A DNA stretch of 42,103 nucleotides, taken from positions 1 to 42,103 of the forward strand of contig JAAETI010000330.1 of the NCBI GenBank assembly GCA_024228555.1. The letters run 5' to 3'. Source of the DNA: a bacterium (lineage in GTDB: Bacteria > Actinomycetota > Acidimicrobiia > Spongiisociales > UBA5794). Positions 1 to 34,316 of this stretch are shown here, in pieces. Positions within the stretch are counted from its first letter, which is position 1; each line of letters starts with the position of its first letter. Below the pieces are notes generated by a model. The model ran no database searches. It had not been told where the DNA came from and worked only from the letters and a program-made list of their open reading frames with translations. The translations under genes were made by a program, and so were the position numbers.

Positions 1-1002
1 CTCGACGCCGCGGCAAACGGAGCTTCATTCCGTGCTGCGGTACCCGGCGGCGAGGCGGTCTATGCGCCCGTCCTTCTCCCCAACACCGGCGAGACGATCG
101 TAGTGCGGGTCTTTGTCACCGATGAATCCCTAACCGACGGCGTTGCCAGATCGACGACCACCCTTGGCGTGCTGGGCCTAGCCCTGGTTGCGATCGCGAT
201 CGCGGTCTCGGACCGCCTCGGCCGATCCATGGTGCAGCCCGTGCGCGAATTGTCGGCGACCGCCTCCGTCCTTGGCGAGGGGAACCTCGAAGCCAGGGTG
301 ACTCCCTCGGGACCGCGCGAGGTCCAGGAGGTTGCGTTGGAGCTCAACGACTTGGCCGACCGGATCGTCCGCTTGCTGCGTATGGAGCGTGAGGCTGCGG
401 CCGATCTATCGCACCGGCTGCGGACACCGCTCACCGCAGTCCGACTTGATGCGGAAGCGTTGCCGGAAGGCCAGGGGACACAACGACTTCTCGACGACCT
501 CGATGAACTGGAGAGGACCGTCGACTTCGTGATCCGCGAAGCTCGCCGCCCCGGCCGGACCGACACCATCGACGCTTGCGACATCGCCGAAGTTGCCGCC
601 GAACGGGTTGCGTTCTGGACCGCACTCGCTGAGGAGCAAGATCGCACCCTCGACTACATGTCGGATGGCAAGCCGGCCCCGGTGGCGCTTGGTGCCGATG
701 ATGCCACCGCAATGATCGACGCACTCGTCGGCAACGTCTTTGCACACACCGAGGAAGGCATTGACTTCGTGGTGGCCGTTGCCTCGGTATCAGATGATGA
801 GGTCATGATCATCGTTGATGATCAGGGGCCGGGCTTCTCAGCCGAGATGGCTGAACGGGGCATCAGCGCAGCCGGGTCAACAGGCCTGGGCCTGGACATC
901 GCAACCCGGACCGCAGATTCGGCGGGTGGCAATCTGACAATCGGAGTCAGCGAGGAAGGCGGAGGCCGCGTCGCCGTTACCTTGCGGCGTCGTCTCAGCT
1001 AG
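1..1002 (+). CDS. HAMP-domain sensor histidine kinase, C-terminal part (5' end outside window)
   Basis: The reading frame is open from base 1, so the N-terminus and first membrane helix lie to the left. What remains is the end of an extracytoplasmic region, one membrane helix (around codons 50-65), a HAMP segment ending in the motif SDRLGR, and a HisKA box DLSHRLRTPLTAVR with the phospho-accepting His at bases 412-414. These are followed by an HATPase domain with N-box DALVGNVFAHT, G1 motif DDQGPGF and G2 motif STGLGLDI. The protein is therefore a membrane kinase that phosphorylates a response regulator, probably encoded just outside the window. It is clearly paralogous to the kinase at 31563-32885, with the same H-box and G2 wording. 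Its stop overlaps by 8 bp the end of the convergent ferric-reductase-like gene, so it may control that operon (inference). Confidence 0.93.
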   Translation, partial: LDAAANGASFRAAVPGGEAVYAPVLLPNTGETIVVRVFVTDESLTDGVARSTTTLGVLGLALVAIAIAVSDRLGRSMVQPVRELSATASVLGEGNLEARVTPSGPREVQEVALELNDLADRIVRLLRMEREAAADLSHRLRTPLTAVRLDAEALPEGQGTQRLLDDLDELERTVDFVIREARRPGRTDTIDACDIAEVAAERVAFWTALAEEQDRTLDYMSDGKPAPVALGADDATAMIDALVGNVFAHTEEGIDFVVAVASVSDDEVMIIVDDQGPGFSAEMAERGISAAGSTGLGLDIATRTADSAGGNLTIGVSEEGGGRVAVTLRRRLS

Positions 1003-1597
1003 CTGGCACCTCAGCGGGCTCGGCGCTCTTCGCTGCTGGCGCTCGCCGTGCGGCGGGTCGGGCTGCCCGGGTCGGTGGTGCCACCGACTGCGCAATCCGG
1101 ATGATCATCAGCATCGTCACCATGGCCAGCGACGCCACGTACATGATCGTCACCGCGGCGTTGGCGGTATCGGTACCGCTGAAGACTCCGTGCAGCGCCG
1201 CACCCAGGAATGTCCCAAACGACGCCATGTGAATCGCTCGCCAAGCGTTCTGCCCGATCCACTTCTTGACGTAGAAGCTCAGGGTGATGACAAACATCAT
1301 GTAGAAGGCAACGACACCCAGGGCAACCGGTAGCGGTTGCCACGCCGATGCCCCAGGGACAAATAGGGCCCGATAGCCAAAGTCGATGAAGTCGTGGTTG
1401 AAGAGGAAGTACATATGGATTCCGGTTGCGATCAGCGAACCGATGGCCAGCGACTCGTGGAACCACGACACCGGCTTCGCCTTCACGGCCCTGCCGAGAA
1501 CCTTTGTTGAGATCAGCAGACCCCAAATGGTCGATCCGGCCAACAATGCATAGGCGATGAGGCCTGACCCCCGGATCGCCATCCACTCAATACTCAT
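995..1597 (-). CDS. Ferric-reductase-like transmembrane cytochrome b-type protein
   Basis: A 200-residue integral membrane protein with about five to six helices. Four histidines sit in two helices in the spacing expected for two bis-His haems: H47 and H61 (x13) in WFHESLAIGSLIATGIH, and H123 and H136 (x12) in IHMASFGTFLGAALH. This is the pattern of the ferric reductase/NOX/MsrQ-like membrane domain, which carries electrons across the membrane. The Ala/Arg/Pro-rich C-terminus is cytoplasmic and probably disordered. I chose ATG at 1597 because GGAG lies about 9 nt upstream; the longer open frame only runs antiparallel through apbE. The gene is last in the operon, 25 nt after apbE. It has no NAD(P)H/FAD domain of its own, so it needs a partner. 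The family is secure; electron donor and acceptor are unknown. Confidence 0.85.
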   Translation of the reverse strand: MSIEWMAIRGSGLIAYALLAGSTIWGLLISTKVLGRAVKAKPVSWFHESLAIGSLIATGIHMYFLFNHDFIDFGYRALFVPGASAWQPLPVALGVVAFYMMFVITLSFYVKKWIGQNAWRAIHMASFGTFLGAALHGVFSGTDTANAAVTIMYVASLAMVTMLMIIRIAQSVAPPTRAARPAARRAPAAKSAEPAEVPAS

Positions 1598-1622
1598 TTC
1601 GTTGCTCCATCGTTCAAGATGC

Positions 1623-2459
1623 TCACGCCGCCATCTCCCACCCAGTGGTTGCGTATACGTTGCCGTCATGCCAGACGACCAACGCGGCATCGATCCAATT
1701 CTGTTGCTCTGCCCACGCCAAACCGTGCTCTCCGTGGAGCAAGACAGCCTTTGCCCCAGCCTCTGCCTCGACGGCTGAGGCCGCGATGACGGTTGCGCTG
1801 AAGATCGGCGACGTGGCAGGGGCAAGACGACGGGGATCAATGATGTGGTGAGCTTCACGACCGGCGACCTTCCAGCGACGTCGTGACGACGATGATGTGG
1901 CCAAGCCACCGCTGCCAAGCAGAACCCGGGCGGCCACCTCACCCCAGGGATCCTCAATCTCCACGATCGTATCGGCAAGCACTGAGCGAACATCGCCGCC
2001 TGCGGAAACCACATCGGCGAGCCCGCGCGTCACTGCCTGATCGCATGTCCATCCCTTGGCGATCCCTCCGAGATCGAGACGCACGCCGTGCTGGCGATAG
2101 ACCGAGTTGCCGTCTACCGACCATCGACCAATCCCTCGGATTGGGCCCAGCTCGCTGCGGTCGGCCACATCGACAAAGTCGCGGTCGTAACCCCAATCGA
2201 CAAGCGCACCGCCCACCGCCGGGTCGATAAGCCCGTCGGTACGAAGCAGGAGCCCAGCTGCTGTGGTGAGACATGAAGCCATCTCGTCCGACACCACCAG
2301 CGTGGGATCTGGGGACCCGTTCAATCGACTCAGTTCGCTGTCGGCAATGAACCGGCTGAACACACGCTCGGCAGCGTCGAACCATTCCCCGACACCAGAA
2401 ACATCGGAGCCGATGGCGACGACGCTGGTTCCCATGGCACGGAAGGACACCCGATTCAT
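1623..2459 (-). CDS. apbE: FAD:protein FMN transferase (ApbE family)
   Basis: A 278-residue ApbE-like enzyme. The family moves FMN from FAD onto Thr/Ser of exported redox proteins, using Mg2+. Recognisable family signatures are the N-terminal MGTS, FSRFIADSELSRLN, the Gly-rich GGIAKGWTCDQAV, SAGGDVRSV and the late HHIIDPR. No clear lipobox or signal peptide is visible, which is unusual for a family that normally acts outside the membrane. The start is the ATG at 2459, which overlaps the preceding stop as ATGA, so translation is probably coupled. Its neighbour is a ferric-reductase-like membrane protein. That pairing is typical of extracytosolic flavin electron-transfer loci, but the usual FMN_bind substrate domain (S/T-G-A-T/S motif) is not seen in the window. 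The family call is firm and the substrate unknown. Confidence 0.9.
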   Translation of the reverse strand: MNRVSFRAMGTSVVAIGSDVSGVGEWFDAAERVFSRFIADSELSRLNGSPDPTLVVSDEMASCLTTAAGLLLRTDGLIDPAVGGALVDWGYDRDFVDVADRSELGPIRGIGRWSVDGNSVYRQHGVRLDLGGIAKGWTCDQAVTRGLADVVSAGGDVRSVLADTIVEIEDPWGEVAARVLLGSGGLATSSSSRRRWKVAGREAHHIIDPRRLAPATSPIFSATVIAASAVEAEAGAKAVLLHGEHGLAWAEQQNWIDAALVVWHDGNVYATTGWEMAA

Positions 2460-2827
2460 GAGCCGGAGCTGGTTACGACATTGATGGTCGGTCGATCCGC
2501 CGACCCGCCACCGCCAGAGGAAGAAGAACCACCACCGCCACCGCCACCGCCAACGGTCACGGTGCGGGTGATGACCTCTGGAGGGGGCGGAGGAACCGGG
2601 GTGTAGCGAATGATGACCAGGCCTTCCTCGGTCGGGGCCGGAACTGCGGCCACCGGCTCCGGGACTTCTTGCACTTCCGGCTCGGGCAGAGGCTCTGGCG
2701 CCGGCTCGGCAACGTCGGCCTGCTCGGCGGCGGCTTGGACCGCAATCACCGAGGTGCCCCATGCGACTGCGGCGCCCGTCCAGGCAAGGATTCGAGCCCA
2801 CCTGCTGGGGAATAGACGTTTCAGCAT
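2456..2827 (-). CDS. Small membrane-anchored Pro/Glu- and Gly/Ser-rich protein, function unknown
   Basis: A 123-residue protein I do not recognise. Residues about 10-32 form a signal anchor or signal peptide with a basic lead (MLKRLFPSRWAR). Next come an acidic Pro/Glu segment (PEPLPEPEVQEVPEP), a short hydrophobic strand, a poly-Pro stretch, a run of Gly then Ser then Gly, and a Thr/Ser end (VVTSSGS). It looks like an exported flexible linker or wall-spanning protein. ATG at 2827 is preceded by an excellent GAGGAGG about 5 nt away, lying within the end of the upstream gene, so I prefer it to an ATG 36 nt further out. The stop overlaps apbE by 4 nt (ATGA). A role as scaffold or flavin-accepting partner of the redox module is possible, but no canonical flavinylation motif is present. 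Confidence 0.75.
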   Translation of the reverse strand: MLKRLFPSRWARILAWTGAAVAWGTSVIAVQAAAEQADVAEPAPEPLPEPEVQEVPEPVAAVPAPTEEGLVIIRYTPVPPPPPEVITRTVTVGGGGGGGGSSSSGGGGSADRPTINVVTSSGS

Positions 2828-2828
2828 G

Positions 2829-3197
2829 TCAGCCCTCCTCGCCGGCCGGGTCTTGCTCGACAACCGTCAAGACTGCACCCTGCTCGATCAACACCCGGGT
2901 CACCGCATCGGGCAACTGCTCGTCCAACGTTGGCTGGCCCGTCAGCTCCGCATAACCATTGGCCTGCAAGATGCGGACAATCGATGGGTCGAGCTCGTCA
3001 ACCTCGAGTTCGGGGACCGGCTCAACCACAACGGTTGTGAATTCCGAGGAGGTGGTGGTGGCGTCGCTCACCACAACCTCCTCGACTACCGATTCTTCCG
3101 CAGGGGAGGTCAGCAGCCAGAGCACGGGGACTAGCCCTGTCACTGCCACTACCGCTGCGGCCAACAACGACACGAAGCTGGTGGATTCCTTAGCCAT
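2829..3197 (-). CDS. Small membrane-anchored acidic protein, function unknown
   Basis: A 122-residue protein with an N-terminal membrane segment (residues about 9-31, SFVSLLAAAVVAVTGLVPVLW). A Val/Glu/Thr-rich spacer follows (TTTSSEFTTVVVEPVPELEVDEL), then a short folded-looking region, IVRILQANGYAELTGQPTLDEQLPDAV, ending in acidic residues. It has no recognised domain. It lies 18 nt after the acidic-tail gene and just ahead of the next start. No good ribosome-binding sequence precedes its ATG (the leader is pyrimidine-rich), so it probably depends on reinitiation from the gene upstream. Together with its two neighbours it forms a trio of exported low-complexity proteins specific to this redox operon. 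Confidence 0.72.
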   Translation of the reverse strand: MAKESTSFVSLLAAAVVAVTGLVPVLWLLTSPAEESVVEEVVVSDATTTSSEFTTVVVEPVPELEVDELDPSIVRILQANGYAELTGQPTLDEQLPDAVTRVLIEQGAVLTVVEQDPAGEEG

Positions 3198-3215
3198 GAG
3201 AGAAGACGAAGCCGA

Positions 3216-4010
3216 CTACTCGTCGTCTTCGTCCTCATCCTCCTCGTCTTCCTCGTCTTCCTCGTCTTCCTCGTCCTCTTCGTCTTCCTCGTCCTCTTCG
3301 TCCTCGTCGTCGTGGTCATCGTCGTCGTGGTCATCGTCATCATCATGATGACCACGACGATTGGCCGCATCGGCGGCGTCGCGAGCCGCAGACAGCTTGT
3401 CCATACCGTCCACGTAGTCACCGGCGTCGGCAAGACCAGCGGCTTCTCCCACCAGTCGCTCGGCCTTGGCAATCTTCTCGCCGTTGGCTCCGTCGGCAAT
3501 CGCAGCGTTGATGTAGTTCACGGTTGCGGCGTACTCGGCCTCGAACTCCGCAGCGGCATCGTCGGTGTCGGAGTCGTCGGCAGAGTCACCAGATGGACCC
3601 GGAGCAGCAACGACTGTGACGGTCTGGACAACAGCCTCGGGGGCGGGAGGTCCAGGCAATTCGAGACCCTCGGCAAGACAGATGGCACGGAGCGAATCCA
3701 GTGCGGCCTGCTCCAGTGGCGAGATGCTGGCGTCGGCTTCCTTCATGACCAGCGACAGCCCTTGCTCGCCACACGCGGCTGCGAGGTCATCACTCGACGC
3801 TATCTCGGGAAGCTCGATCTCTTCGATCGCTTCTGTCGTTGTTGTGGTCTCGACTACGACCTCAGTGGCGGCGACCTCTTCCGGCTCCGCGGCTGCATCT
3901 GGGTTCACCAGCGCTACCGCGGCGACTGCGCTCAACGGAACGAGCAGCAGCCCTACGACCAGCGAGGTCGAGAACTTCTTCGGTTTGGCAGTTCCAGGTT
4001 TGGCTTTCAA
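3216..4010 (-). CDS. Exported protein with a 45-residue Asp/Glu/His C-terminal tail
   Basis: A 264-residue protein starting at TTG. The start is supported by AAGGAG seven nt upstream, which makes it one of the clearest ribosome-binding sites in the window. Layout: basic lead and membrane helix (about residues 14-36), an acidic/Thr spacer (VVETTTTTEAIEEIELPE), and a possible small domain with two Cys (AAACGEQG and RAICLAEG). After a disordered Pro/Asp region comes a helical segment (about 155-218; EYAATVNYINAAIADG to AARDAADAANRR), and finally a tail of only Asp, Glu and four to five His. The tail should bind cations such as Fe, Ca, Mn or Zn (inference). The DNA for the tail is a 9-nt repeat prone to slippage. 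It is the first gene of the operon with apbE and the ferric-reductase-like gene. No family is recognised. Confidence 0.82.
   Translation of the reverse strand: MKAKPGTAKPKKFSTSLVVGLLLVPLSAVAAVALVNPDAAAEPEEVAATEVVVETTTTTEAIEEIELPEIASSDDLAAACGEQGLSLVMKEADASISPLEQAALDSLRAICLAEGLELPGPPAPEAVVQTVTVVAAPGPSGDSADDSDTDDAAAEFEAEYAATVNYINAAIADGANGEKIAKAERLVGEAAGLADAGDYVDGMDKLSAARDAADAANRRGHHDDDDDHDDDDHDDEDEEDEEDEEDEEDEEDEEDEEDEDEDDE
3219..3353 (-). repeat. Tandem GAC-GAG-GAA (9-nt) microsatellite coding the acidic tail
   Basis: On the coding strand the last 45 codons are almost only GAC, GAT, GAG, GAA and CAC/CAT. The core is about seven imperfect copies of a 9-nt unit reading Asp-Glu-Glu. Loss or gain of whole units keeps the frame, so tail length can vary between strains without destroying the protein. 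The opposite strand reads as a meaningless poly-Ser frame. Confidence 0.85.
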
Positions 4011-4129: not shown

Positions 4130-4780
4130 CTACGGGCGGCGATAGTCAACGACATAGTCGGGCGCCGGAACCTCAGATGTCAGCAAGGAGTCGGCGACAG
4201 GAGCCGACGGACGTATCTGGAGCGGGATGACGCCTGCCCAAATCGGGAGGTCGTAGTCCTCCTCATCATCACTAGGCCCACCGGAGCGGACCTTGGCCGA
4301 GACCTCGTCGATCGGCAGGGCAGCCACGAGCGTCCCTTTGAACTCCTTTTCGGTCATCGGGCGCGAATCCGCCCAACGACCAGGGATCACGTGGTCCGTA
4401 ATCGCCTCGAGCGCCGCCCACTTCTCAGTGGCATCGTCGACTATCCGCGGAGAGCCAAACAACACGACAGATCGGTAGTTCATCGAGTTATGGAACGCGG
4501 CGCGGGCAACGACTAGCCCATCGACCAGCGTGACGTTGACACTGATCTCGGCGCCGGATCGCATCGAGCGCAACATCCGGCTCGCCGGCGAGCCGTGCAG
4601 ATAGAGGGTTTCACCGATTCGGGCATGAATGGTGGGGATGACCACGGGTGCGCCGTCATCCACAAAGCCGACATGGCATATCAAGGCTTCGTCGAGGATC
4701 GTAGTGATCGTCGCTGGGTCATATGAAGCACGCTCGGCGAGCCGGCGCACCTTCGTGCGGGAGCTACTGGGTTCTGACAT
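4130..4780 (-). CDS. Pyridoxamine 5'-phosphate oxidase (PPOX) family flavoprotein
   Basis: A 216-residue soluble protein of the split-barrel FMN/F420-binding PPOX superfamily (Pyridox_ox_2 type). Visible family features are the early ITTILDEALICHVGFVDDGAPVVIPT strand pair, the ligand-contact segment LYLHGSPASRMLR, and VVARAAFHNSMNYRSVVLFGSPRIV. The C-terminal third holds an acidic loop (DDEEDYDLPIWAG) and the PLQ strand seen in this subgroup. It probably reduces or binds a small cofactor-linked substrate; the substrate is unknown. Several in-frame ATGs exist. I chose 4780 because TATGCT lies 6 nt upstream, matching the leaderless pattern elsewhere, and the residues beyond it (MPAMSRRRMYALV) look non-coding. 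It is divergent from the methyltransferase gene. Confidence 0.85.
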   Translation of the reverse strand: MSEPSSSRTKVRRLAERASYDPATITTILDEALICHVGFVDDGAPVVIPTIHARIGETLYLHGSPASRMLRSMRSGAEISVNVTLVDGLVVARAAFHNSMNYRSVVLFGSPRIVDDATEKWAALEAITDHVIPGRWADSRPMTEKEFKGTLVAALPIDEVSAKVRSGGPSDDEEDYDLPIWAGVIPLQIRPSAPVADSLLTSEVPAPDYVVDYRRP

Positions 4781-4786
4781 CACGAG

Positions 4787-4792
4787 AGCATA
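4787..4792 (-). promoter_or_regulatory. -10 box TATGCT for the PPOX gene (leaderless)
   Basis: TATGCT on the minus strand ends 6 nt before the ATG at 4780. No Shine-Dalgarno sequence is present, which fits leaderless translation. No good -35 was found. Confidence 0.5.
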
Positions 4793-4823
4793 CATTCGCC
4801 GCCGAGACATCGCCGGCAAAGAT

Positions 4824-31530: not shown

Positions 31531-31564
31531 AGAAGGACCCGCCATTAGCCCGGCGGGTCCTTCT
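31531..31564. terminator. Perfect 13-bp terminator hairpin, right arm overlapping the kinase stop
   Basis: AGAAGGACCCGCC (31531-31543) pairs with GGCGGGTCCTTCT (31552-31564) over an 8-nt loop. On the minus strand it directly follows the HK stop and is trailed by CTTACCTT, so it mainly serves the HK operon, and also blocks read-through from the lipoprotein gene. In the remaining gap (31377-31530), only TCGCAAG (31484-31490) pairing with CTTGCGA (31519-31525) is notable, perhaps a second weak fold. Confidence 0.85.
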
Positions 31565-32885
31565 ACGTGGTAGCTGGACCGAATTTCACCTCAACACGAG
31601 CGCCTCCCAACGCCGATTCCCCCAATTTGAGGCCGCCACCGGTCCGCTCGGCGGCGCGGAGAACGATATCAAGGCCAAGACCCGTCGAGCCGCCCCCGCT
31701 TTCGCCACGCTCGTGCGCACTGTCATGCTCGAACCCGGTGCCGCTGTCTTCGACCACCAAAATCACTTGTCCATCCTCGTCGCCGGGACGAGCCTCGATC
31801 CGGTAGCCGGTCCCCGGGTCAGTGTGCGAGAACACATTGCCGAGCAGAGTGTCGACAAGCGCCCCCAAGTCCTGACCGCTGATCGCAACCGGCAGCCTCC
31901 CGCCCGAAGTATGGACATCGACCGGGCGGTCTTGCTCATCGGCCAGCACTTTCCAGAATGTCGCACGGTGCCGCACAATGGCGCCCAGGTCGGCATGCTC
32001 TGGTCCCCTTTCGACAGCAGGGCGCCGTGCCTCTTGGATCATCCGGTCAACCGCCGCCTCCATCCGATTGATGTCCTCGACCAGGACCTTCGATGCCTCG
32101 CTGTCGCTGAGCGTTTCCGCCTGGAGCCGCAACGCTGTCAGCGGAGTACGGAGCCGGTGGGACAGATCAGCAACCGATTCTCTCTCCTCGGCGAGCAGCA
32201 GCCGTAGTCGTTCTGCAAGGAAGTTGAAGGCAACACCGACGTCGGCAATCTCATCGGGACCCGAAGGGACCACCCTCCGATCGAGATCTCCGCCGCCAAG
32301 CGCCAACGCCGCCTCCGACAGTTCAGCGACGGGTCGCACGACGGATCTGCCAAGTCGATCGGCAGCAACAACGGCAACGATAACTAGGAATACACCGAGA
32401 CCGGCGATCATGCCCCAGGCGACCCAGACACCCTCGGTGAGATCTGCCTCGGGCACGAACGCCCGCACCACGACGTCCACCCTCCGATCGGGAACGTCGG
32501 CCGACTCCAGTGGGACCAGCACCTCTGCCCCACCATCGGTGAAGGCGGTAAAGGCTCTCGCCTCGGAGAAGGCAACTTCGATGTTGTCGGTATTGAAGAC
32601 AGGAGCTCCGGCCAATTCGCCGTCGGCAAACAGGATTGTCACCGCATCGGCTCCAGAACCGAATACTTCAATAACGTCTTGGGCGGCGGCAAGGGAGACC
32701 TGGCCATCGTCTTCGGGCGTGGTATTGACGGCAAGTGCAGTGGCGATCGCCTGAGCGAGCGTTTCGGAACGAGATAGAGCCCTGTTCTGTGCTTGATTGC
32801 TCAACAACAGTGCCAACGGGATCATGAATGCAATCACCACCAGGGTGCTGATGGCAAGGGATAGGATCGCGACGCGTTGTCTCAT
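31563..32885 (-). CDS. HAMP-domain sensor histidine kinase (complete)
   Basis: A 440-residue membrane kinase. TM1 is about residues 8-28 and the sensor lies outside (about 30-150, acidic, no recognised fold). TM2 spans about 153-175, then HAMP (ADRLGRSVVRPVAELSEAA). The HisKA H-box is DLSHRLRTPLTALR with His243, the N-box is DTLLGNVFSHT, G1 is VEDSGTGF and G2 is STGLGLDIVLR. Its gene overlaps the response regulator as ATGA, so the two are one operon. It shares H-box, HAMP start and G2 wording with the partial kinase at the left edge. The signal is unknown, but the next-door divergent exported acidic protein may be part of its regulon. Confidence 0.95.
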   Translation of the reverse strand: MRQRVAILSLAISTLVVIAFMIPLALLLSNQAQNRALSRSETLAQAIATALAVNTTPEDDGQVSLAAAQDVIEVFGSGADAVTILFADGELAGAPVFNTDNIEVAFSEARAFTAFTDGGAEVLVPLESADVPDRRVDVVVRAFVPEADLTEGVWVAWGMIAGLGVFLVIVAVVAADRLGRSVVRPVAELSEAALALGGGDLDRRVVPSGPDEIADVGVAFNFLAERLRLLLAEERESVADLSHRLRTPLTALRLQAETLSDSEASKVLVEDINRMEAAVDRMIQEARRPAVERGPEHADLGAIVRHRATFWKVLADEQDRPVDVHTSGGRLPVAISGQDLGALVDTLLGNVFSHTDPGTGYRIEARPGDEDGQVILVVEDSGTGFEHDSAHERGESGGGSTGLGLDIVLRAAERTGGGLKLGESALGGARVEVKFGPATT

Positions 32886-33565
32886 TCTTCTGGAGCGACC
32901 AGCTTGACCCCGACACCGAACACAGTCTGCAAGTAGCGACTTTCCGCTGCTGACTCACCGAGTTTCTTGCGAAGCCACGAGATATGGACATCAACCGTCT
33001 TCTCGCTGCCGCCATACGGCTGCCGCCAGACCTCGGCAAGAAGCTCTCGCTTGGAGACGACCTCACCTAGGCGCTCCGCAAGGAATCGCAATACGTCAAA
33101 CTCCTTGGGACTCAGGTCGATCGGCTCTCCGTCGAGGCGCGCTTCACGGGCCGCAGCGTCAATCGCGAGATCTCCAACCATGAGAGGACCCTGCCGACCT
33201 TCGTTGCCGGTCCTGCGGAGAACCGCTCGCACTCTTGCTTCCAGCTGGTCAACCGAAAAGGGCTTGACCAGATAGTCATCAGCGCCGGCATCGAGAGTCC
33301 TAATCACATCTCGATCTTCGCTCCGTGCGGTGGCGACAATGATTGGGACTGCGCTGACTGCCCGGATCATTTTGAGCAGCTCGGTTCCGTCGAGATCGGG
33401 AAGCCCCATATCAAGGATGACGAGTTCCGGGGAGACGCGAACCACCGCCTGCAGACCCTCCATCGCGGTAGCCGTCGACTCGACGTCGTGCCCGCGGTCG
33501 GCGAGAACCCGCGCCACGAGTTCGCGAATCCGTTGTTCGTCTTCGATTATGACGACTGTTGCCAT
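32882..33565 (-). CDS. OmpR/PhoB-family response regulator
   Basis: A 227-residue DNA-binding regulator. The receiver domain has acidic residues E8-D9, phospho-acceptor Asp52 in LVILDMGLPD, the switch Thr in VATARS and Lys in LVKPFS. The C-terminal winged helix reads LSPKEFDVLRFLAERLGEVVSKRELLAEVW and TVDVHISWLRKKLGE. It should be phosphorylated by the kinase encoded next and bind direct repeats. ATG at 33565 has TAGGGT 6 nt upstream. It is divergent, across a 70-94-bp gap, from the exported acidic protein, a likely target. Confidence 0.96.
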   Translation of the reverse strand: MATVVIIEDEQRIRELVARVLADRGHDVESTATAMEGLQAVVRVSPELVILDMGLPDLDGTELLKMIRAVSAVPIIVATARSEDRDVIRTLDAGADDYLVKPFSVDQLEARVRAVLRRTGNEGRQGPLMVGDLAIDAAAREARLDGEPIDLSPKEFDVLRFLAERLGEVVSKRELLAEVWRQPYGGSEKTVDVHISWLRKKLGESAAESRYLQTVFGVGVKLVAPEE

Positions 33566-33629: not shown

Positions 33630-33659
33630 TGGCAGGTGCAAAAGAAGGGAATAACCAGA

Positions 33660-34316
33660 ATGGCTCCAATGCGGCAGAGACTCCTTCTCGTCGCCGGATG
33701 GGCTGCAGCTGCCGTCGTGGCCAGTTTGGTCTCAACGGGCGCAGTAGCGGTGGCAGGTGGGCAGGTTACAGACCGGCCCCTCCGCCCTCTCTCGGCGCCA
33801 GAAGTTGCTGCTCTGGCCGAGGAATGCGGGACAACTGAACGAGCGCCTTGCCTCCGGCAGCTCGACAACTCGGTAGTCACGGCATCCACGGTCGAAGCAG
33901 CGCCGGATTTGAACTCAAGCCTCAATGGCGGCGAGGAAGGAGTCTCCCCACCTCTCGACGACTCTATTGTCGATCCTCCTTCAGAGGATCCCCTCGACCC
34001 CGGTGCTGTGTTGGACGAGAGTCTCTTCCCTCCAGAAGATGAAGCCATCGTGCCCGAACCCCGAGCTGAGGTCGTTGACCTGGTCGGCGGACGCGTGAGC
34101 GTGTCGGGAGCTGATGGGGTTGTCACCGTGATCTGGGCGATCCCGAAGCCGGGTTTTGCCTCACTGCCGCCCACGGGACCCGAGGTAGCAACCGACTCGG
34201 TGACAGTGCTGCTTTCCGATGGCTCCCATCAATCGGTGCTTGTCGCCATCTGGTCATCACAGGAAGGACTCGTGATCGAGACAAGCGAAGGTGGCGCCGG
34301 TCTCGTCGACTCCTAG
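33660..34316 (+). CDS. Exported acidic protein, function unknown
   Basis: A 218-residue protein I do not recognise (226 if GTG at 33636 is used). A signal peptide or anchor (about 3-35, LLLVAGWAAAAVVASLVSTGAVAVAGG) precedes a short Cys pair (EECGTTERAPCLRQ). An acidic, Asp/Pro/Ser-rich disordered stretch follows (about 80-140; DDSIVDPPSEDPLDPG), then a small beta-rich C-terminal region (GRVSVSGADGVVTVIWAIPKPG, TVLLSDGSHQSVLVAIWSS). It lies divergent from the second RR/HK pair, mirroring the acidic exported proteins beside the first kinase. It ends inside a CTAG that is also the stop of the convergent ABC-F gene. Confidence 0.78.
   Translation: MAPMRQRLLLVAGWAAAAVVASLVSTGAVAVAGGQVTDRPLRPLSAPEVAALAEECGTTERAPCLRQLDNSVVTASTVEAAPDLNSSLNGGEEGVSPPLDDSIVDPPSEDPLDPGAVLDESLFPPEDEAIVPEPRAEVVDLVGGRVSVSGADGVVTVIWAIPKPGFASLPPTGPEVATDSVTVLLSDGSHQSVLVAIWSSQEGLVIETSEGGAGLVDS

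Follow-up and report, generated by a model that had tools for sequence, protein, structure and literature searches.

A C-terminal Ser-x-Gly-Ser tail protein as candidate ApbE substrate in a cytochrome module of Actinomycetota

Introduction

ApbE, the flavin adenine dinucleotide (FAD):protein flavin mononucleotide (FMN) transferase, recognises the motif D-x-x-[S/T]-G-A-[S/T] and places FMN on its last Ser/Thr; replacing the Asp has a minor effect, and changing Gly to Ala or Ala to Val leaves about 50% flavinylation (PMC12052999). Its canonical substrates (FMN_bind, NqrB/RnfD, DUF2271 and DUF3570) are encoded near apbE and carry a Ser/Thr-Gly-Ala-Ser/Thr motif, while about 4% of surveyed genomes hold ApbE genes without a known target (PMC8238504). 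Here, I describe an ApbE operon at one end of contig C330 from a bacterium of the class Acidimicrobiia. The whole contig, 42,103 bases from a 5.4-Mb draft genome that is 97.7% complete, is called the window hereafter. Beside ApbE, the operon encodes a small membrane cytochrome (CYT) and three small proteins, S3, S4 and S5, and the C-terminus of S3 is proposed as the FMN acceptor.

The closest described systems are the MsrQ-like flavinylation clusters of Actinobacteria, in which apbE likewise lies beside a multi-helix bis-His membrane cytochrome, which are widespread in that group, and which are proposed to feed electrons to a flavin protein outside the cytosol (PMC8238504). Those clusters are defined by PF01794, typically include an FMN_bind gene and often a nicotinamide adenine dinucleotide (NAD)-binding domain, whereas the window has no PF01794 match and no FMN_bind gene but encodes a cytochrome of 200 amino acids without a NAD domain together with a C-terminal tail protein. 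The DUF4405/FezC cytochromes are also small membrane proteins with conserved His that are tied to apbE or iron, but they carry a Pfam domain and are predicted to form six helices (PMC11334425), while CYT is modelled with five long helices and had no Pfam match, to DUF4405 or any other family. For the proposed substrate, there is a precedent in the lactococcal FMN_red proteins, which are flavinylated at an ApbE motif within a C-terminal extension that lacks structure; that extension adjoins the flavin pocket of FMN_red (PMC11334425), whereas S3 has no flavin-binding domain. S3 further differs from the canonical substrates in having no recognised domain and in carrying S-x-G-S, without the Asp, at the extreme C-terminus of a low-complexity arm. 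An ApbE without a signal peptide is also known from Klebsiella, although there the enzyme acts on a soluble fumarate reductase of the cytosol (PMC12052999) and not, like S3, a membrane-anchored protein with a predicted exported tail.

The kind of system is thus already known, ApbE-cytochrome electron export, and the proposed substrate is what is new; no description of the operon in Acidimicrobiia was found in the open-access literature, though one may exist elsewhere. From sequence comparison, I consider it likely that the locus is a transmembrane electron-transfer module linked to a kinase, with S3 in place of an FMN_bind protein as the target of its ApbE. The broader proposal, for which the case is evenly balanced, is that S3 represents a new class of ApbE substrates widespread in Actinomycetota: domain-free anchored tethers, flavinylated at a C-terminal [S/T]-x-[G/A]-S by a cytosolic ApbE with an altered active site before export. 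Each would hold its FMN on a swinging arm that links a small bis-His cytochrome with an acidic exported partner.

Results

Operon layout and recurrence

The relevant features of the window are as follows.

1..1002, plus strand: sensor histidine kinase (HAMP, HisKA and HATPase_c by Pfam), its 5' part lost at the contig end
995..1597, minus strand: CYT, 200-amino-acid five-helix membrane cytochrome (predicted from His conservation, an AlphaFold2 model and structure search)
1623..2459, minus strand: ApbE, FAD:protein FMN transferase, 278 amino acids (PF02424, active-site columns, hydropathy)
2456..2827, minus strand: S3, N-terminal membrane anchor, Pro/Ala/Gly-rich linker and C-terminal S-x-G-S, proposed FMN acceptor (homologue comparison)
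2456..2470, minus strand: end of S3, codons AGC TCC GGC TCA and stop TGA (Ser-Ser-Gly-Ser), the last Ser being the proposed flavinylation site (codons, and zero entropy at -1, -2 and -4)
2829..3197, minus strand: S4, membrane-anchored with a small conserved domain (homologue comparison)
3216..4010, minus strand: S5, exported or anchored, 264 amino acids, TTG start (Cys conservation, model, composition)
3216..3356, minus strand: acidic C-terminal tail of S5 with stop (tail composition)

The operon runs S5-S4-S3-ApbE-CYT with spacings of 18, 1, -4 and 25 bases, and the convergent kinase gene overlaps the cytochrome gene by 8 nt. This confirms the five tightly packed minus-strand genes, with a kinase ending inside the last, described in an earlier sequence-only reading of this DNA, whose boundaries (995-4010) took in the five operon genes and left out the kinase at 1-1002. 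Only ApbE and the kinase matched Pfam; S3, S4, S5 and the cytochrome had no Pfam family above its cut-off.

The same reading had proposed a search for this gene order in relatives. The order of the window, here termed module A, was found at about 30 other loci, in about 30 genomes of one Acidimicrobiia order, at substantial divergence, so the arrangement is not due to chance. A CYT protein search of 138 genomes of the order found the cytochrome in 44 genomes and 28 of 61 genera, and two further layouts emerged. Module B consists of an acidic exported protein, an S3-like tail protein, ApbE and CYT. Module C (L081-L084) consists of CYT, an FMN_bind protein with D-T-[IV]-S-G-A-[ST], and ApbE; it has no tail protein, and FMN_bind is exclusive to it, with all 78 tail loci lacking the domain. 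A tail gene in place of the FMN_bind gene directly precedes apbE in nearly all loci with ApbE and CYT. A phylum-wide search with one protein found a cytochrome homologue in 83 of 396 genomes, and most of the loci fetched follow the module B plan, many with a less acidic partner. A wider version of the module (an exported, often acidic protein, a small anchored protein, ApbE, cytochrome, and kinase with regulator) thus recurs across Actinomycetota. Among the 82 module loci, a kinase was found at 47 and a response regulator at 45.

The C-terminus of S3

All 34 module A homologues of S3 terminate in S-x-G-S-COOH. At the end of the protein, positions -1, -2 and -4 have zero entropy, and the other 12 that were compared range from about 1.8 to 2.9 bits: position -3 takes S, K, Q, A or R, the 11 preceding positions vary freely, and the distance from the GLVV block to the C-terminus ranges from 35 to 104 residues. 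Position -4 uses both AGY and TCN codons and position -2 all four Gly codons, and selection therefore acts at the protein level. Judged by sequence, the S3 ending fits the known ApbE motif in its spacing and end residues.

Two trivial origins of this ending were considered and rejected. The terminal Ser codon of S3 overlaps the ApbE start (a 4-nt overlap within tcATGa), and 33 of 34 homologues have TCA or TCG as their final Ser codon, with its third base usually opening the apbE ATG or GTG. However, such an overlap fixes only that third base, L055 ends in TCC, and the motif is kept despite a gap before apbE in L133 (34 bases) and L159 (16 bases). Comparison with shuffled tails and with control genes ruled out a composition artefact of Ser/Gly-rich tails: 30 of 31 tails in module A end in [ST]x[GA]S, where shuffling predicts 0.4 (in the exceptional locus L054 the wrong gene had been picked, and the true tail also ends in SSGS), while in module B it fell within the last 10 residues at 13/13 loci against 0.8 expected, and outside the order at 22/34 against 2.9 expected, all figures that express a contrast and not a probability, as the homologues are not independent. 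Among 761 control genes, the pattern lay at the exact end in 4 and within the last ten residues in 19. One Arg mostly follows the motif in module B (SNGSR, TNGSR, SGGSR), and endings outside the order include SSGAS, STGGS, TSGSR, SDGS and SRAS.

In tail loci other than module A, the gene preceding apbE encodes a small P/A/T-rich protein. Charge was higher before than after the helix in 52 of 70 tail proteins with a readable N-terminus (mean +3.3 versus -0.1), and since positive charge precedes the anchor helix, an S3-type tail should lie outside the membrane.

ApbE and its known targets

ApbE of the window matched PF02424 with 139.7 bits (cut-off 25.6, E-value 1.7e-40) and retains the catalytic His (AHHIIDPR) and the TSS segment. 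The metal-site block, ADAxATA in FMN_bind-type enzymes, is altered, with Glu in place of its Asp and Lys in place of the Thr four residues further on. Glu and Lys occupy these positions in 33/33 aligned module A enzymes, whereas Asp and Thr do so in 4/4 FMN_bind-type enzymes of the same order; alignment columns of module B and distant loci show mixed residues. The altered Asp position is equated by motif only with Asp285 of the V. cholerae active site (Ser241, His257, Asp285). This Glu/Lys change may mark a substrate switch in the tail-type ApbEs. By hydropathy alone, none of the 82 module ApbEs, that of the window included, has a hydrophobic N-terminal segment. At L094-L096, in other genomes of the order, an RnfD-like gene by contrast lies beside an ApbE with an apparent twin-arginine translocation (Tat)-type signal (RRxFLR).

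The sequence-only reading had placed the ApbE target either elsewhere in the genome or among the small proteins, and had named an FMN_bind gene with its own ApbE as a finding that would speak against the module. The host genome has a single ApbE, with no second copy found, and genome-wide searches detected no FMN_bind, NqrB/RnfD, DUF2271 or DUF3570 in its 1027 draft contigs, in which a substrate could be missed by assembly or go unrecognised as such. With the gene order also conserved in relatives, two of the three findings that this reading had named as refuting it do not hold. As had been noted, FMN_bind (PF04205, no profile match in S3-S5) and, by motif inspection, [S/T]GA[S/T] are absent from the three small proteins. 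A target of known family elsewhere is therefore not supported by these searches, and the comparison of homologues singled out S3 among the small proteins. S4 was rejected as FMN acceptor as no conserved Ser/Thr motif was apparent by eye in its homologues, and S5 as it has no invariant Ser/Thr.

Across the order, 40 genomes encode ApbE without FMN_bind, and 38 of them carry the module cytochrome. Of the remaining two, G120 has, at a contig end (L100), an ApbE gene next to an acidic gene of the module B kind, and G103 is unassigned. Some of the 40 hold extra ApbE genes, of which those inspected adjoin RnfD-like genes (L094-L096) or genes that are DUF2271/PepSY-like by eye (L097, L101), so not all of them are true orphans. 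The survey in PMC8238504 excluded proteins without a signal peptide, and the window's class of ApbE would for this reason have escaped it.

Cytochrome, S4 and S5

His47, His61, His123 and His136 of CYT are invariant in 54/54 homologues, as are Pro81, Gly94, Trp119, Gly141, Asp143 and Arg167. The His pairs lie on transmembrane helices 2 (His47/His61, spacing 14) and 4 (His123/His136, spacing 13), and two bis-His haem sites are predicted from them. An AlphaFold2 model gave five long helices with a predicted local distance difference test (pLDDT) score of 88 and a predicted template modelling (pTM) score of 0.80. Its nearest structures were SpNOX, STEAP1/4, cytochrome b561 and Dcytb, with Z-scores of 13-13.5 that are weak for helical bundles and weak Foldseek E-values (0.02 at best); MsrQ, FoxB and DUF4405 were missing from the structure-match rows, which is not counted as evidence against them. 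Kinship in fold with those haem cytochromes is likely on the strength of the model. The earlier label "ferric-reductase-like" probably holds for the predicted fold, and does not for Pfam, where PF01794 was not listed for CYT at E-values up to 1. Ferredoxin-like genes occur near about nine modules (L038, L040, L041, L046, L050, L147, L153, L158 and L169, the last also with a reductase-like gene), and they are a possible cytosolic electron donor.

S4, seen in module A loci only, follows the pattern ..RVLxxNGYA..LPxxVxRxLIExxxVLTVV. S5 has one transmembrane segment or signal and an acidic tail with 40 Asp/Glu in its last 46 residues (22 D, 18 E, plus 4 H). Cys80 and Cys111 are invariant and lie on a helical hairpin, which is followed in the model by a three-helix bundle; pLDDT is 82-97 in this part, with a pTM of only 0.35. 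The acidic partner proteins had no Pfam match. At L037:4094-5416, tandem S5 copies divide these features, one having the acidic tail and the other the helical bundle.

These properties bear on what the module reduces. It is possible, if doubtful, that it is a metal reductase for iron, copper or manganese, with the Asp/Glu/His tail of S5 gathering the metal and FMN reducing it; being a proposal about the acceptor, it can hold together with flavinylation of S3. Apart from the tail itself, the recurrence of acidic exported partners in modules A and B, the similarity of the CYT model to STEAP and Dcytb reductases, and the link of some flavinylation clusters to iron (PMC8238504) point this way. However, genes for iron transporters, siderophores or Fur-type proteins do not recur beside the module, many loci have a weak acidic tail or none, S5 of L038-L040 lacks it, and acidic tails serve many uses.

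Discussion

From the observed motif and its gene context, I infer a course of flavinylation and electron flow in which ApbE would transfer FMN from FAD to the C-terminal Ser of the Ser-x-Gly-Ser of S3, probably in the cytosol and before the tail crosses the membrane, because ApbE has no export signal. S3 would be anchored by its N-terminal helix with the Arg/Lys-rich side in and the tail out, and its variable low-complexity linker could make the FMN a swinging arm. CYT would then hand electrons through its two predicted haems to the tethered FMN; as it has no NAD(P)H domain, these would probably come from a quinol or a ferredoxin-type donor. FMN may pass them on to an acceptor outside the cytosol, which the acidic S5 and its partner S4 may present or help to reach, and gene context suggests control of the operon by the adjacent two-component system. 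The earlier interpretation as a redox module is partly supported by these results; the C-terminal S-x-G-S, the signal-less ApbE and the spread through the phylum were not part of it.

Several points weigh against S3 as the acceptor, in addition to the relatedness of the homologues and the fragmented assembly. The proposal is weakest where enzyme and target meet: an ApbE in the cytosol would have to act on a protein with a tail predicted to lie outside. The canonical D-x-x-[S/T]-G-A-[S/T] is not found in S3: the Asp is absent, position 2 is free, Ala is replaced by Gly, the C-terminus is free, and near-textbook forms (SGAS, TGGS) occur in distant members only. Moreover, the strict pattern is missing in 12/34 loci outside the order (such as TRTS*, TTAPS* and SPSGNVRCY*), where the acceptor is less clear.

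These same three observations favour a different role for S-x-G-S, which might serve in docking to, or recognition by, ApbE, CYT or an export factor, or else carry another modification, with FMN going to another, unrecognised protein. I regard this as unlikely, given that the known acceptor families are absent from the host genome, that the tail gene sits just before apbE in nearly all ApbE-CYT loci where it replaces the FMN_bind gene, and that some tails do come close to the textbook motif. That ApbE acts mainly as a FAD pyrophosphatase or flavin-trafficking enzyme, giving free FMN and modifying no operon protein, is very improbable: such an activity is reported for Ftp of Treponema (PMC4767422), and the altered metal-site block would suit it, but the catalytic His and TSS segment are kept and, throughout the phylum, this ApbE is accompanied by a C-terminal motif resembling SGAT.

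If the C-terminal tip of S3 is the acceptor, it would supply a target for orphan-ApbE genomes, widen the rule by which ApbE recognises its substrates, and suggest a tag of only four residues. It would also pose the problem of moving a tail with attached flavin through the membrane. An unstudied electron-export system is then predicted in many uncultured actinobacteria.

Neighbouring genes

The response regulator of the window's kinase is placed beyond the contig end; in the relatives L032-L034, L037 and L042, the regulator comes after the kinase. A second kinase/response-regulator pair lies at 31563-33565 on the minus strand, its kinase being 44% identical to the module kinase, and in the relatives L039, L040, L058 and L062 the module-adjacent kinase is closer to this second kinase than to that of the module. 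Divergent from the second two-component system, a small, apparently exported protein with no assigned family is encoded at 33636-34316 on the plus strand. Upstream of S5, at 4130-4819 on the minus strand, lies a gene for a Pyridox_ox_2 protein, possibly FMN-binding, which occupies that place in the close relatives L032 and L034 only. Outside the order, a large gene near the module in L133, L137, L146, L155 and L157 appears by eye to encode a cation-transporting P-type ATPase.

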